Notes under the pieces: generated by a model
The model's input: only the letters and a program-made list of their open reading frames with translations
Database searches by the model: none
What the model was told of the DNA's origin: nothing
Position numbers and translations under genes: made by a program
Origin: an uncultured Eubacteriales bacterium
GTDB lineage: Bacteria; Bacillota; Clostridia; Oscillospirales; Acutalibacteraceae
Direction: 5' to 3'
Assembly: GCA_900316455.1 (NCBI GenBank)
Contig: ONCX01000010.1
Location: 18,587-82,586 of the forward strand
Length of the DNA stretch: 64,000 nucleotides
Shown here: positions 48,890 through 64,000 of the stretch, one piece after another
Numbering within the stretch: the stretch's first letter is position 1
Layout: each line of letters starts with the position of its first letter

Positions 48890-49002
48890 GACCTCGGTGA
48901 TTGCGAAGGGGCTTCGATTACGTTCCTCCTCCCGCATTCCCTCAAGCAATTTGTTGTAAGCTTTTTTTCTATGAGTTCTTTTTCTGAAAGGATGATTTTA
49001 TT

Positions 49003-49257: not shown

Positions 49258-49366
49258 TTCTCCCTTGTCCTCCACGCGCTTATATTTCATGTCTTGAGGC
49301 TTTGCCTTGAGCTTTTAATCACGACATCCCCTTTTTTCTTTTTTTCATTATAATCCCTCTTAAAAT

Positions 49367-49418
49367 TTCAGCTCCCGCCGCGTTGTTACGTGTCGGGAGC
49401 TGATATTTTTTTTGTTTT
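49367..49418 (+). terminator. Rho-independent terminator
   Basis: CAGCTCCCG pairs with CGGGAGCTG, followed by a long T-rich tract. It ends the transcript of the small gene at 49003. Confidence 0.85.
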
Positions 49419-49519
49419 TTTGGCTTTGTGAATCTTTTAGATCACTTTTCGTCTTTTTTGCTTTTCTTGCCTTTCTCCCCGCGTCTTGCTCTGGTTCGGA
49501 GACAGCGTGCCCATGTTTA

Positions 49520-49798: not shown

Positions 49799-49914
49799 TT
49801 ATTTTTGACTTTGCACAAAGTGGTGGGGAGAAGTCTGCCCTTCTGGCTATTGTTGCTTAACTCTCTTTTGTGCATTTTGACGAAGCTATCTCTTTTATGC
49901 TCATTTATAGTTTT

Positions 49915-50523: not shown

Positions 50524-50525
50524 CT

Positions 50526-50978
50526 CTATTTGTTCGACAGCTTCTTCAGCTCGCGCATGAATGTGTCTACGTCCCGGAACTGCCTGTATACTGACGCAAA
50601 TCGCACGTACGCTACCTGATTTATCTTCATCAGCTTGTCCAGCGCCATCTCTCCTAATTCTACCGACGTTATCTCTCGCTCCGTCGAATTCAGCAGCACT
50701 GTCTCTATCTCGTCTACCGCCTTCTCAAGCGCTTTCAGGTCCGTCTCGCTCTTCTTGCACGCCCTGAGCATGCTCTGCAGCAGCTTCTCCCGGTCGAATG
50801 GCTCACAGTATTTATTCTTCTTTATTACTATTATCGGCACGGCTTCTATATATTCGTATGTCGTGAACCTCTTCTCGCATTGCAGACATTCCCTCCGCCG
50901 ACGTATCTTATTCCCGTCCTCCGTCGATCTTGAATCCACTACCTTGCTCTCTGTGTATCCGCAATATGGGCATTTCAT
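50526..50978 (-). CDS. nrdR: Ribonucleotide reductase regulator NrdR
   Basis: The 150-residue repressor has an N-terminal zinc ribbon (CPYCGYTESKVVDSRSTEDGNKIRRRRECLQCEKRFTTYE). An ATP-cone follows (PIIVIKKNKYCEPFDREKLLQSMLRACKK to KINQVAYVRFASVYRQFRDVD). It senses ATP/dATP and represses nrd genes. The ATG follows GGAGAGATACGA. A sequence matching the NrdR box overlaps its own promoter, suggesting autoregulation. It is transcribed away from the phage cluster, which begins 200 bases to the right. Confidence 0.96.
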   Translation of the reverse strand: MKCPYCGYTESKVVDSRSTEDGNKIRRRRECLQCEKRFTTYEYIEAVPIIVIKKNKYCEPFDREKLLQSMLRACKKSETDLKALEKAVDEIETVLLNSTEREITSVELGEMALDKLMKINQVAYVRFASVYRQFRDVDTFMRELKKLSNK

Positions 50979-50998
50979 TCGTATCTCTCCTTTTTCTT

Positions 50999-51038
50999 AT
51001 ACTACATATAGTATATCAGCTCGTTTCCGTTTTTTCAA
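50999..51038 (-). promoter_or_regulatory. nrdR promoter with NrdR box
   Basis: On the minus strand TTGAAA (51038-51033) and TATACT (51015-51010) are 17 bases apart. Over the -10 region and start site lies the palindrome ATACTATATGTAGTAT (51014-50999). It agrees at about 13 of 16 positions with the known NrdR box pattern acaCwAtATaTwGtgt. Confidence 0.6.
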
Positions 51039-51065
51039 TCTTTTTTTTATTTTGGCATCTCTTCA

Positions 51066-51094
51066 TTGATTTGCAGTCCCCTTTATGTTAAAAT
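51066..51094 (+). promoter_or_regulatory. Promoter at the head of the phage-derived cluster
   Basis: TTGATT at 51066-51071 and TAAAAT at 51089-51094 are separated by 17 bases. It reads into the terminase small-subunit gene (ATG 51179). I found no other promoter between here and the window end. Confidence 0.55.
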
Positions 51095-51178
51095 GCTATT
51101 GTAAGGAATTTGAAATGATTAATAAATTCTTTATGTGGAAAAACGCGCAATTCCTAATTATTCAGGGGGTGTATTCGG

Positions 51179-51613
51179 ATGAATACGGCTTTCCCAGCCG
51201 CTTCTGACCGCAAACGCGGCAGACCAAGAAAATTCAGAACTTGTATGAAACGCCTGCTCGCTCTTCCTGTCGCTGATCAGTCCGCGCGCGATGAGCTTCT
51301 CGCTCTCGGTATCGACGATGCCGACGCGGATAATTATATGCTCGTCACTCTCGCTGTCTTTAAAAAGGCTGTCGGCGGCGACCTTAAATTTATTCAGGAG
51401 CTAAGACAGATCGTCTCTGACAACGAAACCGATATCGACAGGAAAACCGGCGTAGCTCAACTCGATAAAATTAAGGCTCAGACTGAGGAAATACGACGCA
51501 AATTCCTTGACGACGACGACGGCGGTCAGTTTATGTCGCAGTTCTTCGACGCGCTCAGAAGCTCCCCCGCTCTCTCTGATTCAGCTCCTTCGGAGGAGGG
51601 TGACCGCTTTTGA
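51179..51613 (+). CDS. Phage terminase small subunit (probable)
   Basis: The 144-residue protein begins with a basic GRPRKF stretch. A helical region follows (DDADADNYMLVTLAVFKKAVGGDLKFIQELRQIVSDNETD), as in TerS proteins of PBSX/SPP1-like phages that recognise DNA for packaging. Sequence similarity is weak to the eye; the call rests on position directly before TerL with a four-base overlap. AGGGGGTG precedes the ATG. Confidence 0.7.
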   Translation: MNTAFPAASDRKRGRPRKFRTCMKRLLALPVADQSARDELLALGIDDADADNYMLVTLAVFKKAVGGDLKFIQELRQIVSDNETDIDRKTGVAQLDKIKAQTEEIRRKFLDDDDGGQFMSQFFDALRSSPALSDSAPSEEGDRF

Positions 51614-52923
51614 GCAAAATTAAGGGCGGATTCAGATTCGCTCCCTTCTCTCCCAAACAACTCAAAATCCTCGGCTGGTGGCTCGACGGCTCTTCCTCAG
51701 CCGACTTCGACGGCGTTATCGCCGACGGCGCTATCCGCTCCGGCAAAACCCTCAGTATGTCGCTCTCCTTCGTTATGTGGGCTACTCAGAATTTCTCCGG
51801 CGCAAATTTCGCTCTCTGCGGCAAAACCGTTACCTCCCTCAGACGCAATGTTATCTCTCCCCTTGAACAAATGCTCTCCTCTCTCCCCTATTCCTTCTCC
51901 GACAGGCGCACCGATAATCTTATCACTGTCTCCTACCGCGGCAGGGAAAATTATTTCTACCTCTTCGGCGGCAAGGACGAGGCTTCACGCGACCTTATCC
52001 AAGGCATTACCCTCGCGGGCGTGCTTTTTGACGAGGTCGCCCTCATGCCTGAGTCCTTCGTCAATCAGGCAACCGCAAGATGCTCCGTCGAGGGCGCGAA
52101 GTGGTGGTTCAACTGCAACCCTGAGGGTCCTTATCACTGGTTCAAGACCGGCTGGATCGACAGGGCTTCCGAACGCAGGCTCCTTTACGTCCACTTCCTT
52201 ATGACAGACAACCTTACCCTCTCTCAGAGAACCCTCGACAGGTACAGGTGTATGTACACCGGCGTTTTCGCCCGCCGATTCATTCTCGGCGAATGGTCCG
52301 CCGCCGACGGCGTTATCTATTCCATGTTTGACGATTCAAAAAACGTCGCTGAGGATATCCCCTTCTCTCCCGAAAGGGATTTCGTCGCTGTTGACTACGG
52401 CACGTTCAACCCATGCGTTTTTCTCCACTTCTTCGCCGCCGGTACAGGCGACAATATCTCTCATTACGTTGACCGCGAGTATTTCCACGACGGCAGATGC
52501 TCCCAGAACGGCGTTCCCGCTCAGAAGGACGACGGTCAGTATTCCTCCGATATGCTCGCTTTTACAGGCGGCAGACGCGACGTCCCTATCATTATCGACC
52601 CCTCCGCAAGCTCCTTCATCACTCGCCTCAGACACGACGGCTTCACCAATGTTATCCCCGCTAAAAATTCTGTCGCTAAGGGCATTTCCGTCGTTTCTTC
52701 TCAGCTTGTCAGGGAAAGGCTCCTCCTTTCGCCCGAATGCGTCCATACCCTCGGCGAAATTCCTTCTTATGTCTGGGATTCCAAATACGCCGCCTCCTGC
52801 GGCGAGGACCGTCCGCTCAAGGAAAACGATCACTGCTGCGACGCCCTTCGTTACGGCGTTTATTTCGATTTCGTCTCACACCCCGCTCTCCGTCCCTCTG
52901 TCAAAAGCAGGGGTACAAGATAG
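51610..52923 (+). CDS. Phage terminase large subunit
   Basis: The 437-residue PBSX-type packaging motor/nuclease shows Walker A DGAIRSGKTLSMSLSF, Walker B GVLFDEVALMPESF and the C-terminal RNase H-like nuclease with VAVDYGTFNPCVFL, then PIIIDPSASSF and CCDALRYGVYFDF as acid-containing motifs. It cuts and pumps DNA into the prohead through the portal. The start is TTG overlapping the TerS stop (TTGA), behind GGAGGAGGG. The motifs look intact, so packaging ability may be kept. Confidence 0.93.
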   Translation: MSKIKGGFRFAPFSPKQLKILGWWLDGSSSADFDGVIADGAIRSGKTLSMSLSFVMWATQNFSGANFALCGKTVTSLRRNVISPLEQMLSSLPYSFSDRRTDNLITVSYRGRENYFYLFGGKDEASRDLIQGITLAGVLFDEVALMPESFVNQATARCSVEGAKWWFNCNPEGPYHWFKTGWIDRASERRLLYVHFLMTDNLTLSQRTLDRYRCMYTGVFARRFILGEWSAADGVIYSMFDDSKNVAEDIPFSPERDFVAVDYGTFNPCVFLHFFAAGTGDNISHYVDREYFHDGRCSQNGVPAQKDDGQYSSDMLAFTGGRRDVPIIIDPSASSFITRLRHDGFTNVIPAKNSVAKGISVVSSQLVRERLLLSPECVHTLGEIPSYVWDSKYAASCGEDRPLKENDHCCDALRYGVYFDFVSHPALRPSVKSRGTR

Positions 52924-52959
52924 TTTATTACATTATATTTGATGAAGGAGTGATTTCTT

Positions 52960-54342
52960 TTGACGGTCAAGCCTACAGATTTTATTCTCGCCGAGCTTGG
53001 CGGACTTTGGGGGCAGGATATCCTTGAGGATATCTCCCGCACTATCCGCCTTTACGACTTCTACGACGGCAGGGGTCAGAACTGGCAGGTCGCTTCCGGT
53101 CTGGATTACAAGCCTACAAGAAAAAAGGTCAATCTCGTTAAAAAGCTTATCAAGCGTGAAGCCGGTTTTATGTTCGGGCGTTCCCCTGAAATCAATCTCA
53201 GATCCCGCTTCGCTGACCCTGACGACATCGCTCGCGCTCAGGCGCTTCTCGACGGTATTCTTGAAAATTCCCGCTTCAAAAACAAGCTCATTCAGGCGGC
53301 ACGCGATTGCTTTATCGGCAGACGCGTCGCTCTTAAAATCAGCGGCGCTCCCGGCAGGGAGCCACGTGTCACATTCCGCCCCTCCTTTGAATTCGTCTAT
53401 TCTACAGCCGACGACGACTGCGATTCCCTCGACAAAATCATCTTCTTCTATCAGACCAATTCTGAGTCCCTCCGCGAAAAGCAGCGCATCTGGAAACAAA
53501 AGTATTTTATGCGCGACGGTCGCTGCTTCCTCAATGAGGGCATTTTTGACGGCTTCGGACGCATTGTCAGCGGCGGCGGGGATATTGACACCGGTCTTGA
53601 TTTCATTCCAGCCTTCGTTATCGTCAACGAGGGTCTTTCGGGCGACCTTAAAGGCGAAAGCGACGTGGAAGAGCTTATCGACCTCCAGAACGCCTACAAT
53701 CACCTTAATTCCGACGACGCGGACGCTCTTAAATTCAATATGTTCCCTCAGACCGTCGCTACCGACGCTAAGGCTGAATCTCTCGACAATATCCGTCTCT
53801 CTCCCGGCGCTCTCGTCGATTTGCAGACCGACCCCGCCGTTATGGGCGACAGCGCTTCAAGACAGGCAAAGCTCCAGAAGCTTGAATCCGGCTTCGGCTA
53901 TTCTGACCGTTTTGAAGCCGCTATCAACCGTACCAAAAACGATATGTTCGACTTGATGAGCGTTCCTAACGTCACCCTCGAACAGCTAAAGGGTCTTATG
54001 CAGTCCGGCAAGAGTATGCGCGCTCTCTATTGGGAGCTTATCTCCAGATGCGAGGAAAAATGGGCTTCGTGGGAACCTGCTCTAAAATGGCTCGCTATCG
54101 CTTTGCTTAAAATGCGCGCCGTTTATCTCGGCGGGGTTTTTCCCGACGGTATCTTTGCCGAAATCGAACACCTTTATCCTATTCTTGAGGACGATTTTAC
54201 CGAAATGTCCAATGACAGACAGGAAGTCGCCGCTCACCTCCGCAGCCGCAAAAGCTATATCCAAAAATGGACTGTCGCTCCTGACGCCGACGCGGAGCTT
54301 CGCGCTATCGCTCACGAATTTTCCCTCTCTGACGTGGAATGA
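52960..54342 (+). CDS. Phage portal protein, SPP1 gp6 type
   Basis: The 460-residue protein forms the dodecameric portal ring through which DNA enters. It shows the family pattern with YKPTRKKVNLVKKLIKREAGFMFGRSPEI near the N-terminus, a long central alpha/beta region with FVIVNEGLSGDLKGESDVEELIDLQNAYN, and the C-terminal LMSVPNVTLEQLKGLMQSGKSMRALYWELISRCEEKW. The start is TTG behind GAAGGAGTG. Between it and the next gene 130 bases contain only a T-rich run and a ribosome site. Confidence 0.9.
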   Translation: MTVKPTDFILAELGGLWGQDILEDISRTIRLYDFYDGRGQNWQVASGLDYKPTRKKVNLVKKLIKREAGFMFGRSPEINLRSRFADPDDIARAQALLDGILENSRFKNKLIQAARDCFIGRRVALKISGAPGREPRVTFRPSFEFVYSTADDDCDSLDKIIFFYQTNSESLREKQRIWKQKYFMRDGRCFLNEGIFDGFGRIVSGGGDIDTGLDFIPAFVIVNEGLSGDLKGESDVEELIDLQNAYNHLNSDDADALKFNMFPQTVATDAKAESLDNIRLSPGALVDLQTDPAVMGDSASRQAKLQKLESGFGYSDRFEAAINRTKNDMFDLMSVPNVTLEQLKGLMQSGKSMRALYWELISRCEEKWASWEPALKWLAIALLKMRAVYLGGVFPDGIFAEIEHLYPILEDDFTEMSNDRQEVAAHLRSRKSYIQKWTVAPDADAELRAIAHEFSLSDVE

Positions 54343-54474
54343 TTCCCGTTGCTTTTTTTTCATTGACTTTTCCCGATGTATTGTCCCACTCTACATCTAT
54401 ACTATTATATTTTGCCGACGGGCTGGCGCTCACTTTTTTTTATCCGCGCCGAAACGGAAGGAGTACATGCTATC

Positions 54475-55068
54475 ATGGATAATCTTCAGAACACCGGTAT
54501 TCAGACTATTTCCGACGCTGACGCTGAAAGAATCGCCGATTCGCTCGCTGCCGCGCTCGATTCACGCAGACAGCGAGCCGAACGCTCCGTTATCAATTCT
54601 TTCGCCCGTCAGAACAACCTCAGCACCGAATTGCTTGAAAGCCTTATTCGGCAGCGAAGCCAACGTCAGTCACCCTCCATTCCCGCCGATGTGCAGGCGA
54701 TCATTGACAAAAAACTCAGGGACGCGGACGACAGGCTCATTCGCGCTGAAATCAGAAACGCTGGCTCTCAGCTCGGTCTTATCGATTCCGACGCGGCTTT
54801 TGCCCTTATGGACAAATCCGCTGTCGGCGTCGGCGACGACGGCTCCGTTTACGGTGTGCGCGAGTCCCTCGCCGAACTTCTTAAAGACAAGCCCTATCTC
54901 GCTTCCCGCCCCTCCGGTTCTACCGGTCGCACGGGCAATTTCCCCCGCCAATCCTCCGACGCCTCCGTTTATGCCTCGCAGCTCGCTCACGCAAGGGATT
55001 CCGGCAACAATTCCCTCGCTGCCGCTATTATCTCTGAAGCTGCTTCTAACGGCATTCTCCTTAGGTAA
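54475..55068 (+). CDS. Phage scaffold-like protein
   Basis: The 197-residue protein lies between portal and capsid, the place of the scaffold gene in SPP1-like phages. It is rich in Arg/Gln/Ala/Ser and largely helical (DADAERIADSLAAALDSRRQRAERSVINSFARQNN, ADVQAIIDKKLRDADDRLIRAEIRNAG), with a low-complexity C-terminus. Scaffold proteins direct prohead assembly and leave before packaging. The ATG at 54475 follows GGAAGGAG. Sequence identity to known scaffolds is not evident, so the call is positional. Confidence 0.7.
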   Translation: MDNLQNTGIQTISDADAERIADSLAAALDSRRQRAERSVINSFARQNNLSTELLESLIRQRSQRQSPSIPADVQAIIDKKLRDADDRLIRAEIRNAGSQLGLIDSDAAFALMDKSAVGVGDDGSVYGVRESLAELLKDKPYLASRPSGSTGRTGNFPRQSSDASVYASQLAHARDSGNNSLAAAIISEAASNGILLR

Positions 55069-55206
55069 ATTTTAATTCGTAATTCGGAATGCGGAATGCG
55101 GAATTATTTCTAATTCGGAACTGCGTTTTCATTCAGGAATTGCATTGCCGTCCGCAATAATTACGAATTACGAATTACGAATTCCGCATTGATATGCATT
55201 CCGCAT
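55069..55206. repeat. Palindromic cluster repeat, copy A
   Basis: The left arm AATTCGGAATGCGGAATGCGG and right arm AATTACGAATTCCGCATT are inverted copies of each other. The core between them is CGGAACTGCGTTTTCATTCAGG..TTGCATTGCCGTCCGCAATAATTACGAATT. The same arms and core recur at 57583, 62003 and, degenerate, at 63176. This copy ends 12 bases before the ribosome site of the capsid gene. Confidence 0.88.
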
Positions 55207-55232
55207 TATTTTTGAAAGGATTTGATTTTTTT

Positions 55233-56174
55233 ATGGCAAATGTTAACGCTACCGGCACTGTTTTTAATCTGCCTAATTTCGCAGGTCAGCTCTATTCCTC
55301 TACTCCCGCTGTCACACCTTTCCTCAGCCTTATTCAGTCCAAGGCTGTGAAAACCGACAACTTCCAGTTCCCTACCGGCGTTGAGTATACCCTCGACGCC
55401 GCTTCTCAGCCCGCTATCTCAGAGACGGCTTCTCTTACCGCGCCTACCGCAGTCAGCTACGTCCGCTCCCAGAATACCAACGTTACTCAGATATTTCATG
55501 AGAAAATCTCCGTGACCTACGCCAAACAGTCCAGCGGCGGCAGACTCAGCGGCGTTACCTCCTCGCTTGACCAGAGCTGCGCCCCAAATGAATTGGATTT
55601 CCAGACCGCAAGGGCTATTGAGAAAATCGCCCGCGATGTTGAATATACCTTCATTAACGGCGTTTACCAGCTCGCAGGCAATTCCTCCCAGGCTAACAAG
55701 ACCCGCGGTATGCTCGCCGCCGCCGGTACTGTCGTTAATTGCCAGAATGCCGCGCTCACTCAGTCCGTACTTAATTCAGCATTCAAAAACGCCTTCGACG
55801 CTGGCGCTGATTTTACCGATATGGTCCTTATCTGCGGTCCTGCCGTTAAACAGAAGCTCTCTGCTGTCTACGCCTCTCAAGCAGGTTTTAACCTCCCTGA
55901 GTCCCGCAACGTCGGCGGCGTGAACCTTATCTCGCTTGAAACCGATTTCGGCCCCGTCCGCATTCTGCTCGACCGCTTTATGCCCTCCGGCGTCCTCCTC
56001 GGCGCGGATATCTCCTGCATTCGCCCCGTTGAACAGGACGTTCCGGACAAGGGCAACTTCTTCCGCGAGCCGCTCTCTAAATCCGGCGCGGCTGAGGAAT
56101 ATCAGATCTTCGGTCAGATCGGTCTCGATCACGGCCCCGCCTGGAAGCATTTCAAAATCACCAACATCGCTTAA
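55233..56174 (+). CDS. Major capsid protein, DUF5309 / SU10 type
   Basis: The 313-residue protein matches the DUF5309 capsid family: an N-terminal LPNFAGQLYSSTPAVTPFLSLIQSKAVKTDNFQFPTGVEYTLDAA arm, then AQIFHEK-like FHEKISVTYAKQSSGGR, FTDMVLICGPAVKQKLSAVYASQ and a C-terminal YQIFGQIGLDHGPAWKHFKI. It would build the icosahedral shell. The ATG at 55233 follows GAAAGGATTTG. The ribosome site comes directly after repeat copy A, and no other promoter is seen. Confidence 0.88.
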   Translation: MANVNATGTVFNLPNFAGQLYSSTPAVTPFLSLIQSKAVKTDNFQFPTGVEYTLDAASQPAISETASLTAPTAVSYVRSQNTNVTQIFHEKISVTYAKQSSGGRLSGVTSSLDQSCAPNELDFQTARAIEKIARDVEYTFINGVYQLAGNSSQANKTRGMLAAAGTVVNCQNAALTQSVLNSAFKNAFDAGADFTDMVLICGPAVKQKLSAVYASQAGFNLPESRNVGGVNLISLETDFGPVRILLDRFMPSGVLLGADISCIRPVEQDVPDKGNFFREPLSKSGAAEEYQIFGQIGLDHGPAWKHFKITNIA

Positions 56175-56200
56175 CTTCTCACTCCGGAGGCTTCTTCTCT

Positions 56201-56512
56201 ATGGCTGACATTATCAACGACGGCGATTACTCCGCTCTGCTCCCTCTGCTGAGATTCAATCTCAGGGAAAATTCCGGCGAATGCGCCTGCTCCGCTTTCT
56301 CTCAGGAACAGCTCCTTTTGCTTCTCGGCAAGCATTCCGGCGACGTTAACGCCGCTTCCTACGAGGGGCTTCTCATTAAGGCTAAATGCGATTCCGTCTC
56401 GCTTCCCGACGGTATCAGTCTCCCTGACGGCAGAAATTACTGGCTCGCTCTCGCAAGACTCTACCGCCCCGCACGTTCCCGCAATATCCCTCGCGCAGAG
56501 GAGGCGGTCTGA
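56201..56512 (+). CDS. Phage head-tail connector (putative)
   Basis: This 103-residue, mostly helical protein lies directly after the capsid gene, where Firmicute siphophages encode the head-tail connector (gp15-like). It shows SALLPLLRFNLRENSGECACSAFSQEQLLLLLGKHSGDVNAASYEGLLIKA. A motif-level match is weak; the call is mainly positional. A CTCCGGAGG site precedes the ATG. Confidence 0.68.
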   Translation: MADIINDGDYSALLPLLRFNLRENSGECACSAFSQEQLLLLLGKHSGDVNAASYEGLLIKAKCDSVSLPDGISLPDGRNYWLALARLYRPARSRNIPRAEEAV

Positions 56513-56513
56513 T

Positions 56514-56885
56514 TTGGCTCTCGATACCGCCGTCTCTTCCCTCAGATGCAGACTGTGCAGAAACGGGCTCCTCGATGATTTTGAGGTCTATTCCCGCTCC
56601 GAGGGTCCTTTCGGAACGCAGCTGCCCCCTGTGCTTTTCGCTTATACCAGCGGTTATTTTTATTCCAAAAACAACCGTCATCTCGCTAATGTTATAGAAA
56701 TTGCCGGATATATCCCTGAAAGCACCTGCCATAATTTCAGACTCCTCGCTTTCGACGACAACGCTTCCGCCGGTGACCTTATTCTCATCGGCGGAGTATT
56801 CTATCGCGCCGCATGCGTCAGGGATATATCCCCTTCTTGCAGAATTATTGATCTGGAGGCTGATTCGGTTGAAGCTCAGAATTGA
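56514..56885 (+). CDS. Phage head-closure-type protein (putative)
   Basis: The 123-residue protein follows the connector by one base and starts with TTG behind GGAGGCGG. Beta-rich segments (RSEGPFGTQLPPVLFAYTSGYFYSKNN, RLLAFDDNASAGDLILIGGVFYRAACVRDIS) fit the small beta-barrel head-closure proteins (gp16 of SPP1) that sit at this locus. Its end overlaps the next gene by 17 bases. Confidence 0.62.
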   Translation: MALDTAVSSLRCRLCRNGLLDDFEVYSRSEGPFGTQLPPVLFAYTSGYFYSKNNRHLANVIEIAGYIPESTCHNFRLLAFDDNASAGDLILIGGVFYRAACVRDISPSCRIIDLEADSVEAQN

Positions 56886-57219
56886 CATTGACCCCCTTAT
56901 CTCCGGTCTTTCCGCTTATTCCGCAAACGCCCGCGTATGCCTCCGCCGCTCCGGCTCCGCTGCCGCTCTCAATATGGAATCCTTCGCCAAAGCCAATCGC
57001 CCCTGGACTGACAGAACGGGTATGGCAAGACGCACTATTCAGGGCGTTTCCGCTTTCGACGGCAGCCTTTTTTCCGTCGGCGTTGAGGGTCATATGCCCT
57101 ATTCCGTTTTCCTTGAGCTTGGCTTCGGCGGCAGATACTCCATTCTCGCCCCCGCCGTTCACCACTTCGCTCCTCAAGCCCTGCTCGGCTTCGCTAACGC
57201 TCTCCACAGTATGAAATGA
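56869..57219 (+). CDS. HK97 gp10-like minor head/tail component (putative)
   Basis: The 116-residue protein has the basic helix RSGSAAALNMESFAKANRPWTDRTGMARRTIQG and then YSVFLELGFGGRYSILAPAVHHFAPQALLGFANALH, the layout of HK97-gp10-like proteins. The start is TTG at 56869, nine bases behind GGAGG; the longer open frame upstream runs through the previous gene. It likely joins head completion and tail attachment. Confidence 0.7.
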   Translation: MKLRIDIDPLISGLSAYSANARVCLRRSGSAAALNMESFAKANRPWTDRTGMARRTIQGVSAFDGSLFSVGVEGHMPYSVFLELGFGGRYSILAPAVHHFAPQALLGFANALHSMK

Positions 57220-57226
57220 GGCAGTC

Positions 57227-57574
57227 ATGAATTATTCCGATATCATTAACACCCTTTCCAACGCGGATATCGACGTCGCTTTGCCTGCCGCAAAACAGGG
57301 CGTATGCACCTCGCCTTACGTTGTCGTGCAAAGCTCCGGCACTTATCCCTATGCTATATCCCGTTCCTTGTGCTATTCGCTCGTCACCGTGCGCTGCTTC
57401 GTCCCGCTGAATTCCTATCAGCTGCTCGATACTCTCGTCAGGAGCGTTTCTGACGCTCTCGCTCCTCTCGCTCCCGACCTCAGAGCTACCGGAAATCAGT
57501 CGCTCCATTCCGTTAACGACAAATTCCGCGCTCACGAATGCAGCGTTCAGTACCTTTTTCAGCACAGAATTTAA
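57227..57574 (+). CDS. Phage tail terminator / minor protein (putative)
   Basis: The 115-residue protein (SDIINTLSNADIDVALPAAKQGVCTSPYVVVQSSGTYPYAISRSLCYSLVTVRCFVPLNSYQLLDTLVRSVSDAL) has the alpha/beta profile and position of a tail terminator that caps the tail tube. It starts with ATG behind GAGGCAG and is followed by repeat copy B. Confidence 0.68.
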   Translation: MNYSDIINTLSNADIDVALPAAKQGVCTSPYVVVQSSGTYPYAISRSLCYSLVTVRCFVPLNSYQLLDTLVRSVSDALAPLAPDLRATGNQSLHSVNDKFRAHECSVQYLFQHRI

Positions 57575-57582
57575 TTATTATT

Positions 57583-57740
57583 AATTCGGAATTATTTTTT
57601 AATTCGGAATTCGGAATGCGGAATGCGGAATTATTTTTTTTAATTCGGAACTGCGTTTTCATTCGGGCAATGCATTGCCGTCCGCTATAATTACGAATTA
57701 CGAATTCCGCATTCCGCATTAATATGCATTCCGCATTGAT
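57583..57740. repeat. Palindromic cluster repeat, copy B
   Basis: It has the same arms and core as copy A, with an extra outer AATTCGGAATTATTTTTT unit. The core holds the perfect 14-base palindrome GGCAATGCATTGCC. It ends 8 bases before the ribosome site (GAAAGGATTG) of the tail tube gene. Confidence 0.9.
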
Positions 57741-57762
57741 ATGAAAGGATTGATAATTCACT

Positions 57763-58458
57763 ATGGCTAATATGCAGATGGCTATTGCCAATATCGAGCG
57801 CATCGATATTATTACCGGAGATTCGCCCCCAAGAGTCCTCTCTTTTGACTCCGCAAGCGACGCTTCCGCTCAGGCTCAGATCTCCGCAGGCTCCGAAAAG
57901 GAACTCCGTATTAAAAATCAGATCGTCGCTCAGAATTTTTCCGAGGATATCGTTAAGGGATTCAATATTTCCTTTACCGATTCCACCTTCTCTCCCGAAG
58001 TCTTCGCTCTCGTGGACGGCGGTCAGAGCTATGTCTCCGATTCCGGCGCTTATACGTGCTATTCCGCTCCCGCCGCCGGTCAGGTCGTTTCCCGCACCAA
58101 ATGCACTCTCGTCATATATTCCTCCGAAAAGGACTACGACGGGCATTCCCTTTCGTTCACGGCATTCGCCTTCCCAAACGCCTCCGGCTCCCCCGCTTCC
58201 GTCTCCCTCAGGGACGGCGAATTCTTCGCCCCCTCCTACACCCTCAAAAGCAGACCGTCAAAAGGCTCAAGCCCTATGACCGTCCTTTCCCTCCCGTCAA
58301 TGCCGGTTATCGTCGGCTCCGCCGCTGACCTTCCCCCGTCCCCCGTCGCCGGTAAAACCGTAATTCTCGCCGCCGCATCCGGTATCGCGGGTCTTGCTTC
58401 CAATATCTCCGCAGGCACTTACGCTCTCTACACAAGCTCCGGCTACGCGGCTATCTGA
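57763..58458 (+). CDS. Phage major tail tube protein
   Basis: This 231-residue beta-rich protein has the position and profile of siphophage tail tube proteins: ANIERIDIITGDSPPRVLSFDSASDAS, GSEKELRIKNQIVAQNFSEDIVKGFNISFTDSTFSPEVFALVDGG, and a C-terminal Pro-rich Ig-like extension (FAPSYTLKSRPSKGSSPMTVLSLPS). Tube hexamers stack on the tape measure. Repeat copy B lies directly before its ribosome site, as copy A does before the capsid gene; these are the two most abundant virion proteins. Confidence 0.8.
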   Translation: MANMQMAIANIERIDIITGDSPPRVLSFDSASDASAQAQISAGSEKELRIKNQIVAQNFSEDIVKGFNISFTDSTFSPEVFALVDGGQSYVSDSGAYTCYSAPAAGQVVSRTKCTLVIYSSEKDYDGHSLSFTAFAFPNASGSPASVSLRDGEFFAPSYTLKSRPSKGSSPMTVLSLPSMPVIVGSAADLPPSPVAGKTVILAAASGIAGLASNISAGTYALYTSSGYAAI

Positions 58459-58499
58459 TTATTCTTTTTTTTATTTTGAAAAGGACTGGTTTTTTTATT

Positions 58500-58913
58500 A
58501 TGAATTCCGTTGATTCAATCAGAACATCTCAGCTCGTTTCGCTCCCCGGCTGGGACGGCGGGAATTGGGAGTGCGAGCTGAAACGTCCCTCTATCCTCGC
58601 GATGGCCGCTTCCGGCGCTATACCCAACCCGCTGATGAAAACCGCCAGAAGGCTCTTTTACAGCGGCGTTTCCCCCGACGGCGGCGATCTTGCCGAGGAA
58701 GGGCGCGTGCTGCTCGAAATCGCCCGCGCCGCTCTGGTGAAGCCTTCCTTCGACGAGCTGCGGAAAGCCGGAATCGAGCTGACGGACGAGCAGTTGGTGG
58801 CTATCTTCCAATTCACTCAGTTGGGGGTCAAGGCTCTCGACCGATTTCGTGGATTCGCCAGCAATAATGACGGTGATATTCATGGCTCAGAGGTTCCGGA
58901 GCAGACCAAGTGA
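58500..58913 (+). CDS. Tail assembly chaperone (putative)
   Basis: This 137-residue protein (MNSVDSIRTSQLVSLPGWDGGNWECELKRPSILAMAASGAIPNPLMKTARRLF, then a helical FDELRKAGIELTDEQLVAIFQFTQLGVKALDRFR) lies between the tail tube and tape-measure genes, the usual place of the gpG-type chaperone. The ATG follows AAAGGACTGG. The next frame overlaps its end in +1, which recalls the gpG/gpGT arrangement. Confidence 0.68.
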   Translation: MNSVDSIRTSQLVSLPGWDGGNWECELKRPSILAMAASGAIPNPLMKTARRLFYSGVSPDGGDLAEEGRVLLEIARAALVKPSFDELRKAGIELTDEQLVAIFQFTQLGVKALDRFRGFASNNDGDIHGSEVPEQTK

Positions 58914-59106
58914 TCTTCTTCAAATTACCGACGGCTTTGCCGCCTATTGCTTCGACGAGGTATGCTGCTATATCCTCTCCCAGATCGACGAGGGCAAACG
59001 CCCTTTCTTTCGCCGGACACAGAACTTGTACGGGAATTTTACGGCAAATTCCCGTACCGTTGAAATTCTTCAGAATCTCGGCGCGGAGGTGAAACGCTTT
59101 GATTAA
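58882..59106 (+). CDS. Second tail chaperone-type protein (putative)
   Basis: The 74-residue protein (AQRFRSRPSDLLQITDGFAAYCFDEVCCYILSQIDEGKRPFFRR) has the AYCFDEVCxYI helix seen in the small product that precedes the tape measure in many Firmicute siphophages. It overlaps the end of the previous gene by 32 bases in the +1 frame and has only a weak ribosome site (GGTGATATTC). Translation may depend on coupling or recoding. Confidence 0.6.
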   Translation: MAQRFRSRPSDLLQITDGFAAYCFDEVCCYILSQIDEGKRPFFRRTQNLYGNFTANSRTVEILQNLGAEVKRFD

Positions 59107-60070
59107 CGCCGGTACTGTGGGTGCTTATCTCACACTCGATATCTCGGATTTCCGCGACAATCTCTCCTTCGCGGAAAGCCTTATTCAGAAATTCAGAAAT
59201 AACAACGGCGATACCGACGATTCCGGCGGGTCGGGGAATTCATTCCTTGACGGGTTCGCCGATTCCTTATTCGCCGCCGGAAAAAACGCGGTCAAATTCG
59301 CGGGCGATACAGCACGTTCGGTTTGCGACGCGTTCGGTGACGTTCCGGAAAAAACGCGGCTCTATATTCTCCATTCCTGCGACGGTATGAATTCTGTCCT
59401 TAAATCAGCCGCGCCCATTCTTTCCGCTTCCGCCGCAGGCTGCGCTGGCGGCATTCTCTCGGCAATAGATAATTCCCTCGGCGCGTCCTCAGGCTCCGGA
59501 GGAATGTTCGGCGCGGGCGGCAGGGCTGTCCTCGCCCTCGCTCGCGGTATGCAGGGGCGGAAGCTTGCCGCCGCGGATTCTATGTCCGGTATCATGCGGA
59601 GCATTCTCTCGGCAGCGGATTCCGTCAGCTTTTCCGGCGTTGGCTCCAACATCGTCAGCGGCATTATCAGGGGAATGAACCTTAATAAGCCCGCGCTTGT
59701 TTCGGCTGCCGCCGCTCTCGCACAAAGCGCCGCCGCCGCCGCTAAACGCGCTCTCGGTATAAATTCCCCCTCCCGCGTCATGATGGATGTCGGCAGATTC
59801 GCCGCAGAGGGCATGGAGCTTGGTCTCAGAAAAGGCTCCCGCAATGTCTACGCCGCGGCTTCTCAGATTTCACGCGAAACCGCTGAGGCTCTCGGCGGCA
59901 TTTCTTCGCCCGCCCTGAATTATTCCGCCTCGCGTTCTTCTGATTACAACGAGCGCATTGACCGTCTCGACAAAATCCTCGACGCTGTTGAAAAACTCGC
60001 CGATTCCCAGACCACTATGGAAATCGACGGACGACCCTTCGGAAGGCTGGTGCGTGAAGCGCTTCGCTAA
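59099..60070 (+). CDS. Tape measure protein, very short
   Basis: The 323-residue protein carries the C-terminal tape-measure hallmark KRALGINSPSRVMMDVGRFAAEGMELGLRKGSRNVYAAASQISRETAEAL, which ends the tape measure of many siphophages. It also shows membrane-like Ala/Gly-rich stretches and a repeated helical pattern. Siphophage tape measures usually exceed 600 residues. At the usual 1.5 angstrom per residue this one predicts a tail of about 48 nm. The start is TTG behind GGAGGTGAAACG, overlapping the previous gene by 8 bases. Confidence 0.82.
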   Translation: MINAGTVGAYLTLDISDFRDNLSFAESLIQKFRNNNGDTDDSGGSGNSFLDGFADSLFAAGKNAVKFAGDTARSVCDAFGDVPEKTRLYILHSCDGMNSVLKSAAPILSASAAGCAGGILSAIDNSLGASSGSGGMFGAGGRAVLALARGMQGRKLAAADSMSGIMRSILSAADSVSFSGVGSNIVSGIIRGMNLNKPALVSAAAALAQSAAAAAKRALGINSPSRVMMDVGRFAAEGMELGLRKGSRNVYAAASQISRETAEALGGISSPALNYSASRSSDYNERIDRLDKILDAVEKLADSQTTMEIDGRPFGRLVREALR

Positions 60071-60225
60071 CTGAAAACTGAATACTGAAAAATGAATAAT
60101 GAATAATGATGGAGCGGCAAAGCCGCTGGAAAATATATTTTCAAGGGCGAAGCCCTTCCGATATTTTTTCATTATTAAGTCTTAAATTTTCAGTCTTCAG
60201 TATTTTTATTTTTGGGGGTGATTAT
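60071..60225. repeat. Imperfect inverted repeat between tape measure and Dit
   Basis: The left half ACTGAAAACTGAATACTGAAAAATG and right half CATTATTAAG..TTTTCAGTCTTCAGTATT are inverted relatives around two small hairpins, AGCGGCAAAGCCGCT and AAGGGCGAAGCCCTT. It differs in sequence from copies A-D but has the same plan. Confidence 0.75.
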
Positions 60226-60237
60226 ACGGGAGAGCTA

Positions 60238-60516
60238 TTGCCTTACCGCATTCATTACGAGAATTCCGCGGGGGAAATCATTCGCTTTGATTCAGAACCA
60301 TTTGTCGTCCAAAGCAACGGCTGCTTCGATTGGCAATGGAACATTTCTTCTTACGACAGGGCTTTACGCGACGGCGGACGGGCTGTCGCCGCACGCCGTC
60401 CCGTGCAGGACCGCACTCTCGTCCTTGACGTTTTCGCCGATAACCAAGCCGATCACGACGCGGCGCTCGACAGGCTTCACGACGTTCTGGAATACTTCCT
60501 CCGTCAAGACGATTGA
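60238..60516 (+). CDS. Distal tail protein (Dit), N-terminal part of a disrupted gene
   Basis: The frame from the TTG at 60238 gives about 92 residues of a Dit-type tail hub: PYRIHYENSAGEIIRFDSEPFVVQSNGCFDWQWNISSYDRALRDGGRAVAARRPVQDRTLVLDVFADNQADHDAALDRLHDVLEYF. This belt domain normally continues with 25-30 residues before KTxDxxWTSY. Here that part is missing and the frame ends at 60516 while the family sequence goes on in another frame. The start is uncertain; GGGAG lies five bases upstream. Confidence 0.65.
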   Translation: MPYRIHYENSAGEIIRFDSEPFVVQSNGCFDWQWNISSYDRALRDGGRAVAARRPVQDRTLVLDVFADNQADHDAALDRLHDVLEYFLRQDD

Positions 60517-61015
60517 CCGCGACTGGACCTCTTACACCGTCGTCGGGCTGACTCTCAGGCTCATTTCCCCCGCGTGGGTCAAAGAGGAAACCGTCGCTGT
60601 GCTGCCTGTTTCGGGCGCGGGAGTCTCTTCCGACAAGAAGTACATGGGAAAATATCCCTACAAGTATTCCGAGGGCGGGAACGTTACGCGTTTTTTCAAC
60701 GACACGCCTTCTTCCGCGCCTATGATTATCAAAATATTCGGCGCTTGCTCTAATCCCTCCGTTTACGTCGGCGGGAACGAATATTCCGTCAACACCAGCG
60801 TTGCGGCGGGAGAGTACGTCGTTATCGACCAGCGGGACAAATCAATCTGCCGCGTAGGTCAGAACGGCGCGCGCTCCAATATCTTCAACCTTCGCAAAAA
60901 GAGCGTTGACAATTTTAAATCCGCGCCGTCCGGTTCGCTCACGGTTACGTGTTCCGGTCAGTTCGCCTGCGAGGTTACGTTCCTCACCCAAAGGAGTGAA
61001 CCGGAATGGACTTGA
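60497..61015 (+). CDS. Distal tail protein (Dit), C-terminal part
   Basis: The second part begins around SSVKTIDRDWTSYTVVGLTLRLISPAWVKEETVAVLPVSGAG and runs through the beta-rich galectin-like domain (NVTRFFNDTPSSAPMIIKIFGACSNPSVYVGGNEY, YVVIDQRDKSICRV) to 61015. It is in the +1 frame relative to the first part. The break looks like a deletion of several dozen bases around 60490-60497. An intact Dit is needed to attach the tail tip. Confidence 0.75.
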   Translation, partial: SSVKTIDRDWTSYTVVGLTLRLISPAWVKEETVAVLPVSGAGVSSDKKYMGKYPYKYSEGGNVTRFFNDTPSSAPMIIKIFGACSNPSVYVGGNEYSVNTSVAAGEYVVIDQRDKSICRVGQNGARSNIFNLRKKSVDNFKSAPSGSLTVTCSGQFACEVTFLTQRSEPEWT

Positions 61016-62001
61016 TTCATGCTGACAACAGCTTCAATGAGCTTGGGGTTGTGGAGTTTGTTCGCTTCGACGGGATAATCTCTCTGGACGCTGACGTGCA
61101 GGGGAACGACTGGGAAGCCGAGATCCCCGCCGAGGATTATTCCCGTTACGGCTTTGCGCTCGGACACTACCTCTACTTCCCCGATTCAGAATGGGGCGGG
61201 AGACTTGAAAAAATTACGCACGTTTCCAAGACGCACACTGTGAAATTATGCGGTGTTACTTGGCGCGGTATGCTCTCGCGCCGCGCTCTCCTTCCCCCCG
61301 ACGGTCAGACGCACACAGACCTGCGCGACACGGACATTTATCCCGCTATGCGCTCCCTTGTCTCCGGCTTCGGCGGACTTTTCTCCGCACCGTCGGGAAA
61401 TTCCGGTCTGTTATGCGGGCTGAAATTCCGCTACACGAATGTGCTTGACGCTATTCTCGATATTCTTGAACCTCACGGACTGCGGCTCGCGCTCGCCCTT
61501 GACCCCGACAGCAGGCACGTGATTCTCTCCGCTCCCGCTGTCGCCGATCATTCCGACGAAATAGAGCTTTCGGGGGATTACGATTTCTCCTACACCTCAA
61601 CCCTCGGTCAGGCTACCTACAATCACGTCATCGCCCTCGGCCGCGGCGAACAGGAAAACCGAACCGTCCGGCACGTCTGGCTTCTTCCCGACGGCACGAC
61701 CACTACCGACCCCAACGCTTCCGGCATTGCTTCCGGTGCTGACGAACGCACGCTTGTCTACGACTATTCCTCCGCTGAGGACGAAAAGGCTCTCATCAAG
61801 GGCGCGAAAAAACAGCTCAAGGATCACGGCGCTCAGAATTCCATCGAAATCACCTTCGATTCCGGCGACCTCGATCTTCCGCTTGGCGACAAGGTGGGCT
61901 TGCGCGACCGCACACTCGCTCTGTCCGACGTCCGCACCATTACGGGCAAGCTTCTCACCGTCTCCGCCGACGGCTTTTCTTTAAAATACACGGTTAATTA
62001 A
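61006..62001 (+). CDS. Siphophage Gp37-like (ReqiPepy6) tail protein
   Basis: The 331-residue protein matches the Gp37-like tail family: FVRFDGIISLDADVQGNDWEAEIPAEDYSRYGFALGHYLYFPDSEWGGRLEKITHVSKTHTVKLCGVTWRGMLSRRAL, then FSYTSTLGQATYNHVIALGRGEQENRTVRHVWLLPDG and GLRDRTLALSDVRTITGKLLTVSADG. It takes the place of the tail-associated (Tal) hub protein, with no endopeptidase seen. It overlaps the Dit gene end by ten bases. The start is ATG behind AAAGGAG. Confidence 0.85.
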   Translation: MDLIHADNSFNELGVVEFVRFDGIISLDADVQGNDWEAEIPAEDYSRYGFALGHYLYFPDSEWGGRLEKITHVSKTHTVKLCGVTWRGMLSRRALLPPDGQTHTDLRDTDIYPAMRSLVSGFGGLFSAPSGNSGLLCGLKFRYTNVLDAILDILEPHGLRLALALDPDSRHVILSAPAVADHSDEIELSGDYDFSYTSTLGQATYNHVIALGRGEQENRTVRHVWLLPDGTTTTDPNASGIASGADERTLVYDYSSAEDEKALIKGAKKQLKDHGAQNSIEITFDSGDLDLPLGDKVGLRDRTLALSDVRTITGKLLTVSADGFSLKYTVN

Positions 62002-62002
62002 T

Positions 62003-62110
62003 TCGTAATTCGGAATGCGGAATTATTTTTAATTCGGAACTGCGTTTTCATTCAGGCAATGCATTGCCGTCCGCAATAATTACGAATTCCGAATTCCGCA
62101 TTCCGCATTG
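62003..62110. repeat. Palindromic cluster repeat, copy C
   Basis: It has the same core as copies A and B, including GGCAATGCATTGCC. The right arm AATTCCGCATTCCGCATT leads without a gap into an open frame that lacks a start codon. Confidence 0.9.
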
Positions 62111-62576
62111 CCGCGAGCGGAATCCTCGGTTCGCTTACCTGCGTTAAGGTTGACAACAACACCGTCCGGCTCTCCGGCGGCGGCGTCAGCAACCGCGGCT
62201 ACATTCTTCGCATTCCCGACGGCGAGAATCTTGAGCTTGCCATCGACAACGGCGAGCCCGGGAAAAACAGAACCGACGTTGTGGCGGCTGTATTCACTAA
62301 GGGCGGCGGGGACGTTTCCGACACACATTCATTCGCTGTCGTCAAGGGAATCGCTTCCTCCGGCACTCCCTCCGTCCCCTCCCTCACAACCTCAAATCTT
62401 TCGTCAGCCGGAAATGTAAACCAGCTGGCGCTTTTTTATGTCACGGTCACAGGTTCGGAAATCACCGCCGTAAGCCGCGCCGCTTCACGTCTGCCAGCAG
62501 CTTCCTCCGCTCCCGCTGTCTTCGTTCAGCAGTCCGCGCCGTCCAACCCTTCCACCGGCGATCTGTGGCTATGGTG

Positions 62577-62577
<1 letters not shown>
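62107..62577 (+). pseudogene. 5'-truncated phage tail protein next to repeat copy C
   Basis: The frame 62107-62577 encodes a typical tail-tip protein end: ASGILGSLTCVKVDNNTVRLSGGG, RIPDGENLELAIDNGEPGKNRTDVVAAVFTKGGG, TSNLSSAGNVNQLALFYVTVTGSEITAVSRA and QQSAPSNPSTGDLWLW. Upstream, the frame meets a stop inside repeat copy C at 62077. No ATG, GTG or TTG with a ribosome site precedes the conserved part; a GTG at 62281 is internal. The 5' end seems to have been replaced by the repeat. Confidence 0.7.
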
Positions 62578-62636
<59 letters not shown>

Positions 62637-62650
62637 GGTGATGTTTTTTT

Positions 62651-63175
62651 ATGATTAAACGATATTCCGGAAGCTCCGCCGTTGATGTGACCTCCCGCAA
62701 ACGCTGGAACGGTTCGGGCTGGGTTGATCTGACATTCGGAAAACGCTGGAGCGGCTCCTCGTGGGTCGATTTATGGAATGATTCCGGCGGCTCGGGCGTG
62801 TTATTCTCCGATATGAAATCTACCGTCAGCTCGCCCACCGTGCATTATTCCGCTTCATATGAAGTTTCTGATTCTTCCCTCGTCCTGACATTCAAAGGCT
62901 GGCTCAATTCGTCCGCTTCATCGCTCGGTTCGGGCATTAAGCTGACGGTTTTCGCAAGGCTTAACGGCGGCGTGTGGGGAAATTCCGTCATTAAATCCGG
63001 CAGCGCTGTGTGGAGCGGAACGACAAAGCATTCCGCTTCGATTACGCTTGGCGGCGTTAAGAACGGCAAAAACAAGCTCGAATTCTACATCACACGCGCC
63101 GGTTCGTCCTACAGCGGTTCCGCCGGAAGTATCGGCAAAGCGTCCGATCCGAAAACTTATTTTTTTAATCTGTAA
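62651..63175 (+). CDS. Phage tail-tip protein with WxGSxWVDL repeats
   Basis: The 174-residue protein starts with three tandem modules of the type RKRWNGSGWVDLTFG, GKRWSGSSWVDLWN, each with two Trp and a turn. A beta-sandwich domain follows (VHYSASYEVSDSSLVLTFKGWLNSSASSLGSGIKLTVFARLNG). Such modules are common at the tail tip of Firmicute phages and may bind cell-surface sugars; this is inference. A GAGGTGATG site precedes the ATG. Confidence 0.75.
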   Translation: MIKRYSGSSAVDVTSRKRWNGSGWVDLTFGKRWSGSSWVDLWNDSGGSGVLFSDMKSTVSSPTVHYSASYEVSDSSLVLTFKGWLNSSASSLGSGIKLTVFARLNGGVWGNSVIKSGSAVWSGTTKHSASITLGGVKNGKNKLEFYITRAGSSYSGSAGSIGKASDPKTYFFNL

Positions 63176-63255
63176 TCCGGAATTGCGTTTTAATTCACGC
63201 GACGTATTTCCGTCCGCAAAAATTCCGCATTCCGCATTACGCATTCCGCATTGAT
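63176..63255. repeat. Degenerate palindromic cluster repeat, copy D
   Basis: It keeps GGAATTGCGTTTTAATTCACG.., a core-like CCGTCCGCAAAAATTCCGC and three right-arm units (GCATTCCGCATT). The left arm is almost gone. It ends 10 bases before the ribosome site of the last gene. Confidence 0.75.
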
Positions 63256-63275
63256 TTATTGGAGGTGTGGTTCGT

Positions 63276-64000
63276 TTGCGTGACTTTATACCAAGAAAAA
63301 TTGACATCAACGGCGATATTGACGCAGTTAATGTTAAACAGTTCGACAATGACAGCAGATATATTCACGTCACTATTTCTGACGAGGATTTGTCCGACGG
63401 CACTTTCGACCTGCTGGGCTGCTCCGCCGCGCTCTACATTCAGCCCCAAAACAACGACGATCCGACTAACGTTTCATTCGTCGCGGGGGAAATCGCCGAC
63501 GCGGAGAACGGCATTGTCACATTCCTGCTCCCGGGCGGCGTGACGCAGAACGCCGGACAGTACGAGTGCGAAATCTGGATTTACGAGGGCGATTCTCAGT
63601 CCCGTCCAGTTATTTCCACAAAGCCTTTCCTGCTCATTGTAGAGAAATCCATCCGCAATACCTCCGCTGTCGAGGCTTCTCAGAGTTTTTCCGCGCTGGA
63701 CAGGGCTCTTATCGAAGTGCAAAACGTCCGAAGCGAGGTCAACGCGCTCGCGGCTCTCGCTGACAGCGGCGAAATTCCCGCGGGTACGCTTGAATCAGAG
63801 GTGGTCGATGCGCGTTCCGGCTTCAGTACGCTCGGAGCCGCGCTCAGAGCGTGCGTCAAGGGCATGAATGTGTATCTCAACGCCGACAGGTTCAGGACTC
63901 TTTTCGGCGACAGCAATTACGAAAACGGCAATTTCGACAACGTGGGCAACAACAAAATCTACCCTATAGGTCTTTCCAACGGCGGCGAGCTTGGCAATTC
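63276..64000 (+). CDS. Baseplate upper protein (BppU)-like tail protein, 3' end outside window
   Basis: The frame is open from TTG 63276 (behind TGGAGGTG) to the window end, giving at least 241 residues. It starts with a BppU-type N-terminal domain: RKIDINGDIDAVNVKQFDNDSRYIHVTISDEDLSDGTFDLLGCSAALYIQPQNND, then ENGIVTFLLPGGVTQNAGQYECEIWIYEGDSQSRPVISTKPFLLIVEKS. A linker with LIEVQNVRSEVNALAAL and SRSGFSTLGAALRACVKGMNVYL follows. This family joins receptor-binding or enzyme domains to the tail tip; those are beyond the window. Confidence 0.8.
   Translation, partial: MRDFIPRKIDINGDIDAVNVKQFDNDSRYIHVTISDEDLSDGTFDLLGCSAALYIQPQNNDDPTNVSFVAGEIADAENGIVTFLLPGGVTQNAGQYECEIWIYEGDSQSRPVISTKPFLLIVEKSIRNTSAVEASQSFSALDRALIEVQNVRSEVNALAALADSGEIPAGTLESEVVDARSGFSTLGAALRACVKGMNVYLNADRFRTLFGDSNYENGNFDNVGNNKIYPIGLSNGGELGN

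Follow-up and report, generated by a model that had tools for sequence, protein, structure and literature searches.

The window analysed here, a 64,000-nucleotide stretch from an uncultured Eubacteriales bacterium (bases 18587-82586 of an 82586-base contig, C51, of a 2.19 Mb metagenome-assembled genome, MAG), ends in an intact packaging-head-tail operon of phage late genes, all on the forward strand, that runs from 51179 to the contig end. This cluster is probably a domesticated phage late operon, siphovirus-like and resembling a gene transfer agent (GTA), that is inherited mainly vertically within its genus. Comparison of the sequences supports domestication well, and from the same material we infer that a particle made by the operon would package and deliver host DNA. 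Because the window ends where its contig does, the right side of the cluster is readable only in relatives. A first-pass annotation had located a phage structural cluster here and had asked whether it might be GTA-like or domesticated. Gene-family matches from 51179 to the contig end bear out the cluster, and the domesticated reading is supported by its occurrence in 15 of the 18 genomes of the genus, by clade-specific sites, a host-compatible tree, purifying selection and the lack of early genes in the readable flanks.

Distribution in the genus

A search for the major capsid protein (MCP) among 148 relatives matched 19 genomes: 17 of the 18 from the genus (labelled G000 to G017, the window's own being G000) and two of the 130 others, one of which (G080) gave a weak, partial match. 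Nineteen cluster genes and two host neighbours were then mapped onto the contigs of the relatives, and their gene layout and tree position separate three types. Type A, which resembles the window, is present in 15 genomes (G000 to G003, G005 to G008, G010 to G013 and G015 to G017), with G002 counted from a contig spanning the small terminase (TerS) to the scaffold gene. Type B is found in eight (G001, G002, G004, G005, G007, G015, G016 and G017), mostly as contig fragments, and type X in G009 and in a second genus. The order of the 19 cluster genes is kept wherever the contigs of the copies extend far enough. The genomes without type A are G004, G009 and G014, which are 86%, 83% and 76% complete, respectively. 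The host gene nrdR was likewise not found in G004 and G014 (nor in G003 and G016), so the absence of type A from G004 and G014 may be an assembly gap.

Chromosomal sites and ends of the element

Type A copies occupy four chromosomal sites, and each site group is a clade both in the host tree and in the cluster tree. At the first, the cluster is divergent from nrdR (n = 7: G000, G006, G008, G011, G012, G013 and G015); the back-to-back arrangement that the first-pass annotation had described is thus shared, and the comparison of this flank that it had recommended gives sites matching the host clades. The second site lies beside threonine synthase (thrC; G003 and G010) and at the third the cluster follows nrdR in the same orientation (G001, G005 and G007). 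The fourth adjoins a metallophosphoesterase gene, as read in G016 and G017; G002 is assigned to it from a metallophosphoesterase gene and the promoter motif at a contig end. The type X cluster of G009 adjoins the same metallophosphoesterase.

The right end can be followed in three relatives. In G006 the whole cluster lies on a 246 kb contig and measures about 18.6 kb from TerS to the lysis end, which holds an amidase endolysin, an XhlA-like gene (below cut-off) and a weakly holin-like gene; beyond these, on the opposite strand, are genes for Complex1_51K and 2Fe-2S thioredoxin-like proteins. The cluster of G008 spans about 17 kb and closes with a CHAP endolysin, beyond which lie SH3-domain and polysaccharide genes. 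Behind the fibre gene of G007 come a collagen-like gene (recognized by eye) and recQ, and the lysis genes are found elsewhere in the genome. The integrase, repressor and replication module of a temperate prophage, for which a look to the right had been proposed, was not seen when the open reading frame (ORF) lists of these three relatives, which have both junctions, were read by eye; the window's own contig is cut. Ten flank proteins searched with Pfam belonged to host families only. The view that no attachment site is apparent also holds: no significant direct repeat links the two junctions of G006, G008 or G007 (the longest common words, 11, 8 and 11 bases, were equalled in 18, 172 and 25 of 200 shuffles), and no tRNA adjoins the cluster in the 10 loci scanned.

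Inheritance compared with the host

Two conserved genes of the window (26504-28861 and 32374-34203), which we take to be polA and typA, underlie the host tree. Eight of 12 splits are shared between this tree and that of type A, the four unshared host splits have bootstrap values of at most 34, and the host data do not reject the type A cluster tree (approximately unbiased, AU, test, p = 0.247). For type B, by comparison, the host and cluster data sets reject each other's trees (p = 2e-46 and 8e-45). The Mantel correlation of head genes with host distances is 0.89 for the 15 type A copies and 0.49 for the eight of type B. Synonymous p-distances over large terminase (TerL), portal, capsid and scaffold give a cluster/host ratio of 0.84-5.10 over the 105 type A pairs, none below 0.5; in type B the ratio spans 0.17-4.80 over 28 pairs, three of them below 0.5.

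Close pairs, in which synonymous divergence (dS) of all shared cluster genes was set against that of single host genes, agree for several type A copies: 0.23 against 0.11-0.32 in G001/G005, 0.80 against 0.68-0.82 in G006/G012, 0.85 against 0.42-0.90 in G008/G015, and 1.23 against 1.11-1.26 in G003/G010. The type B copies of G002 and G004, by comparison, differ by a dS of 0.105 while their hosts differ by 1.12.

Selection, tape measure and small terminase

Purifying selection acts on the cluster genes, and almost every copy has them intact. The ratio of nonsynonymous to synonymous divergence (dN/dS) is 0.07-0.15 for all shared cluster genes in six close pairs, 0.06-0.09 for TerL in the six pairs and 0.005-0.05 for the MCP in five pairs. 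TerL reads in a single frame in 14 of the 15 type A copies.

The tape measure of 323 residues given by the first-pass annotation is correct, and short tape measures recur throughout type A (262-479 residues in 10 complete ORFs, one more being cut) and type X (262-405 residues in three complete ORFs, one more being cut at 411), against 943 and 1068 residues in the two complete ORFs of type B. RcGTA has a short tape measure too. This length carries no information on the head.

An insert in TerS is common to all 15 type A copies and absent from the five aligned type B copies; conversely, these five have an N-terminal GGKASG stretch that type A lacks. Together the common insert and the missing stretch favour one origin of type A. 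A structure model of TerS was considered as evidence of DNA binding, but its mean pLDDT of 61 was too poor and it was left unused, which counts among the points against the favoured reading.

Genes of the cluster and its left neighbours

The features of the window are as follows.

50526-50978, reverse strand: nrdR, divergent host neighbour in seven genomes (Pfam Zn_ribbon_NrdR and ATP-cone; synteny)
51066-51094, forward strand: conserved promoter, read directly (-35 TTGATT at 51066-51071, 17-base spacer, -10 TAAAAT at 51089-51094)
51179-51613, forward strand: small-terminase-like gene (TerS), 144 residues (phrog_2412, a family without named function; the type B gene at the equivalent position also matches)
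51610-52923, forward strand: large terminase (TerL), 437 residues (phrog_2, Terminase_6N, TIGR01547 above cut-off)
52960-54342, forward strand: portal protein (SPP1_portal, phrog_64)
54469-55068, forward strand: head scaffold (Phage_scaffold)
55194-56174, forward strand: MCP (SU10_MCP, E 3e-63; phrog_1328)
56201-57574, forward strand: four small genes of 103, 123, 111 and 115 residues in the capsid-to-tail-tube interval (phrog_4020, unknown; phrog_5, neck, weak; phrog_7585, unknown; the 123-residue gene without family)
57763-58458, forward strand: tail tube (phrog_6686)
58476-59106, forward strand: two overlapping genes of 145 and 85 residues directly 5' of the tape measure (phrog_6280 and phrog_6541, both of unknown function)
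59099-60070, forward strand: short tape measure, 323 residues (phrog_1686, E 3.8e-23)
60202-62001, forward strand: Dit and minor tail proteins of 104, 168 and 331 residues (phrog_33, phrog_538, Sipho_Gp37-like below cut-off; the 104-residue gene with a weak match only)
62281-63998, forward strand: tail tip and fibre genes of 98, 174 and at least 244 residues (phrog_13141, BppU_N; the 174-residue gene without family)

TerL scores 172 bits against TIGR01547, the PBSX family of NCBIfam (cut-off 105), and retains what we take to be its ATPase and nuclease motifs. PF03354, tried as the terminase family, gave no hit in the genome of the window, and TerL belongs to a different terminase family. The conserved start of the MCP is probably at 55233, and the four small genes behind it are probably connectors or completion proteins. 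The last gene, truncated where the contig stops, encodes an N-terminal BppU domain.

To the left of the cluster, the ORF lists of the window contain no integrase or replication gene, in agreement with the first-pass annotation. A Cro/C1-type helix-turn-helix gene and an adjoining DUF2975 membrane gene lie at 47594-48329 on the reverse strand, 2.2-2.9 kb left of nrdR, and are probably a host pair and not a phage repressor. The five Phage_integrase matches of the window's own genome are all on contigs other than C51.

No known RNA element scores above threshold in 46000-64000. Inverted and short tandem repeats can be seen by eye in gaps between late genes (60070-60230, 62003-62115, 62577-62640 and 63170-63255), and these are not shared at the 15-mer level with 50 kb of the genome's own host sequence. 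Host-type repeats within the cluster were considered as a sign of long residence and discarded: 17 of 12822 bases share 15-mers with that host sequence, and three host control stretches score higher (62, 132 and 253 bases). A viral catalogue contig (L030, IMGVR_UViG_3300037249_001779) matches TerL, portal and capsid of the window with 100% identity across the residues compared; the viral database thus holds a fragment of this chromosomal element catalogued as a virus.

A dedicated promoter and leader hairpin

The first-pass annotation had described an ordinary sigma-A-type promoter about 90 bases ahead of the cluster. Its position stands (51066-51094, with the first start codon at 51179), but it is not ordinary. 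The motif CATTGATTTGCAG-N9-TGNTANAATG, which begins at 51064 in the window, lies upstream of TerS in all 15 type A copies with at most four mismatches: it is exact in 10 genomes, with two mismatches in G006 and G012, three in G011, and four in G008 and G015. The next-best site within the same 600 upstream bases has at least eight mismatches, and the promoter is also aligned across the seven nrdR-divergent relatives. Tandem copies occur, two in G010, G011 and G016 and three in G017. Read backwards, the motif has no match in the 18 genomes. Since the pattern was derived from these sites, the evidence for it lies in its conservation at four separate places and in the extra sites described below. 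Best sites on 12 type B contigs have six to eight mismatches. In the type B contigs G002:C48 and G004:C59, a six-mismatch site directly upstream of TerS shares GCAGTA and TGTGCTAAAAT with the motif and, by this likeness, may be the ancestral late promoter.

Further sites with two mismatches are found away from the cluster. One in G007 (C2) precedes a fibre-like ORF, an 89-residue ORF and an M15 endolysin, a gene set that identifies this as a putative detached lysis operon. Another in the same genome (C39; L365:144-1445) is just upstream of a stand-alone VapE-like helicase gene, and a second VapE-like gene (G007:C24; L373:4342-5604) has a three-mismatch site just upstream. VapE is not a regular part of the element, as matches to the first of these genes are limited to three of the 18 genomes. 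Three-mismatch hits were otherwise not counted as regulon members, many being generic TTGATTT...TATAATG sites. The remaining two-mismatch sites precede a 451-residue ORF in G006 (C16) and stand without an ORF directly behind in the window's own genome (G000:C35:39121-39152; L344:1501-1532). The latter is followed by a possible terminator-like hairpin, such as 16 of 100 shuffles also yield, and possibly represents a small RNA or a relic.

The leader between promoter and TerS contains a terminator-like hairpin in 10 of the 15 type A copies (shuffles of the 15 leaders yield one in 0-11 of 100), so antitermination may gate the operon.

Type B prophages and the second genus

Type B shares homologous genes from TerL to the tail, in the same order, with type A. 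It differs in having early genes, a long tape measure (two copies), a different TerS N-terminus (five copies), no site nearer to the type A promoter than six to eight mismatches (12 contigs) and movement between species. Genes for SSB, RusA and a replication initiator are present on G002:C48, together with a late-type transcription regulator and a head-morphogenesis gene; on G004:C59, G005:C52, G015:C56 and further fragments, genes of replication, recombination and late regulation were recognized by eye. No integrase was seen on the type B contigs, all of which are fragments. Movement between species is evident from three pairs with a synonymous distance of 0.10-0.16 and host genes at 0.56-0.58 (among G002:C48, G004:C59, G015:C56, G016:C304/C137 and G017:C60). 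In G016 the TerL genes of the type A copy (C109) and the type B copy (C304) are both split near residues 310-325, an assembly error or a gene conversion.

The second genus (g45) has one MCP relative in each of its four genomes. One locus (L193) holds a compact cluster that extends over about 13 kb, with a TerS-like gene (phrog_1206) at one end and an amidase at the other, and the stretches separating it from its neighbours showed no early genes; the other copies, including loci L195 and L198, are cut by contig ends. The type X promoter word TGACAGTAGTGCA stands upstream of TerS, exact in G009 (C84), L193 and L195, and L198 has three copies with one or two mismatches each.

Comparison with known systems

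GTAs are defined by six features in a published classification (PMC9662315). Three were tested, and the element displays them all: its proteins derive from caudoviricetes; it is fully endogenized, as GTAs often are over several loci (G006, G008 and G007 have host genes at either end of the cluster and G007 a detached lysis operon; the window's own right end is cut); and it is mostly vertically inherited and co-diversifies with its host, with the exception of G002, G016 and G017. The other three, namely mostly random host DNA in the capsid, a head too small for the whole of the agent's own genome, and delivery of DNA to other cells, need particles, and the element is consequently filed as GTA-like and not as a proven GTA. 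Like RcGTA and its family Rhodogtaviriformidae, it is a vertically inherited, endogenized structural cluster of a tailed phage, though in another host phylum (PMC9662315).

The first-pass annotation had placed GTAs mainly in Alphaproteobacteria, a statement that stands with one addition: FpGTA of Faecalibacterium, a GTA-like element published in 2026 (PMC12946183). According to that report, FpGTA is present in all 12 Faecalibacterium genomes examined there, some strains having a second operon that includes lysis genes; it packages 8.4-8.9 kb, and GTA-like packaging is reported in other Ruminococcaceae (PMC12946183). It resembles the present element in belonging to gut Clostridia and in having an operon of TerS, TerL, portal, scaffold and capsid without replication genes in that account (PMC12946183). 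In contrast, FpGTA is described as most likely podovirus-like (PMC12946183), whereas type A, known from its genes alone, has a tail tube, tape measure and Dit of siphovirus type. A search of one Faecalibacterium MAG (about 1.8 Mb) with the window's TerL gave no match, a weak negative as the completeness and FpGTA content of this MAG are not established. A literature search that did not reach bioRxiv and most subscription papers yielded no GTA of siphovirus type from ruminant-gut Clostridia.

An antiterminator, GafZ, gates the GTA operon of Caulobacter; it binds in the interval from -35 to -10, upstream of a terminator (PMC11150451). Both this GTA (CcGTA) and type A have a late-gene cluster behind one promoter (14 kb in CcGTA), a downstream hairpin, and conserved sequence that extends from the -35 element into the spacer before the -10; CcGTA differs in being alphaproteobacterial and in having its terminator after the first gene (PMC11150451). 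The likeness of the type A promoter and hairpin to Caulobacter antitermination is suggestive. PBSX of Bacillus subtilis, another domesticated element, has a large terminase of the same family (TIGR01547) and, as the same source on FpGTA notes, kills instead of injecting DNA (PMC12946183).

Weight of the evidence and alternative explanations

Several observations weigh against a vertically inherited, GTA-like element. The host tree has a narrow base of only two genes, and the cluster data reject this weakly resolved topology (AU, p = 0.001). With the MCP alone, the Mantel correlation with host distances for type B (0.46, eight copies) almost equals that for type A (0.51, 14 copies). The dS of type A is 0.77 in G016/G017 and 0.52 in G002/G017, with host values of 0.05-0.30 and 0.06-0.20, so that synonymous divergence among G002, G016 and G017 is 3.5-5 times higher in the cluster than in the two host genes; either the element or these genes must have been exchanged, and inheritance there is not simply vertical. 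The TerL frame of G016 is broken, although the part read still has the ATPase motifs. The leader hairpin is absent in the window's own genome and in G006, G008, G012 and G013, and no lysis gene adjoins the cluster in G007 or G005. Finally, different clades carry the cluster at different sites, and in the trees type B phages are nested within type A.

These last two points mean that several domestications are possible, a question of history separate from that of function. One genus-specific phage family may have been domesticated independently, once per host clade, rather than in one event followed by relocation; the four different sites and the nesting of type B fit this, yet we find it doubtful, as the promoter and TerS insert are common to the 15 type A copies, while five type B copies lack the insert and their upstream sites have at least six mismatches. 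The nrdR neighbour is also shared by two clades, though in opposite relative orientation.

The main rival for the function is a domesticated killing particle like PBSX, which packages host DNA and lyses its producer but injects nothing and kills relatives with its tail. It is unlikely, though to be taken seriously: TerL exceeds the PBSX-family cut-off, a complete tail tip with BppU-type fibre is retained, and vertical inheritance and selection fit equally well. Pure killing, however, needs no strongly constrained packaging enzymes such as the dN/dS values of TerL and MCP indicate, even if PBSX itself keeps its own, and the tail here is siphovirus-like whereas PBSX is myovirus-like.

The first-pass annotation had held a normal prophage or a decaying remnant to be equally compatible with the cluster; host genes in the flanks and the host-compatible tree weigh against the first, a dN/dS far below one against the second. 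An ordinary temperate phage lineage that repeatedly inserts next to the same genes, and whose early genes lie past the ends of the contigs, is improbable. The window's contig and several of the relatives' do stop inside the fibre gene, related type B prophages inhabit the genus and integrases occur on other contigs of G000; yet host genes directly follow the lysis genes in G006 and G008, in each of which a single contig spans both junctions, and the fibre gene in G007, no tRNA marks the 10 loci scanned and no significant repeat the junctions of three relatives, and tree and synonymous divergence are compatible with the host, unlike those of type B. A functionless remnant, to which the lack of early genes and the broken TerL of G016 might point, is highly improbable given 19 cluster genes in order, a TerL frame kept in 14 of 15 copies, strong constraint and preserved catalytic motifs.

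If the element is indeed GTA-like, the cell would switch the operon on from the conserved promoter, and antitermination at the leader hairpin could gate it as GafZ does in the Caulobacter GTA. TerS and TerL would then fill heads with host DNA, as is proposed because no complete phage genome is attached for packaging, and a short tail would be joined to the filled head. Amidase, CHAP or M15 endolysins with holins would lyse the producing cell, and the particles would carry DNA to relatives. A bolder picture, which we entertain only tentatively, is that of an old siphovirus-like GTA common to two genera of ruminant-gut Clostridia, with a regulon on one dedicated promoter gated by hairpin and putative antiterminator, a detached lysis operon, the VapE-type helicase genes of one species included, and related prophages persisting in the same genomes.

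Significance

Very few GTAs with known genes lie outside Alphaproteobacteria, and the sole clostridial one found in print is described as podovirus-like. Since a mainly vertical element exists here beside closely related wild prophages in one genus, the steps of domestication can be compared gene by gene: loss of early genes, shortening of the tail, change of TerS and acquisition of a dedicated promoter. The cluster is also a candidate genetic basis for the packaging of random host DNA in further gut Clostridia.

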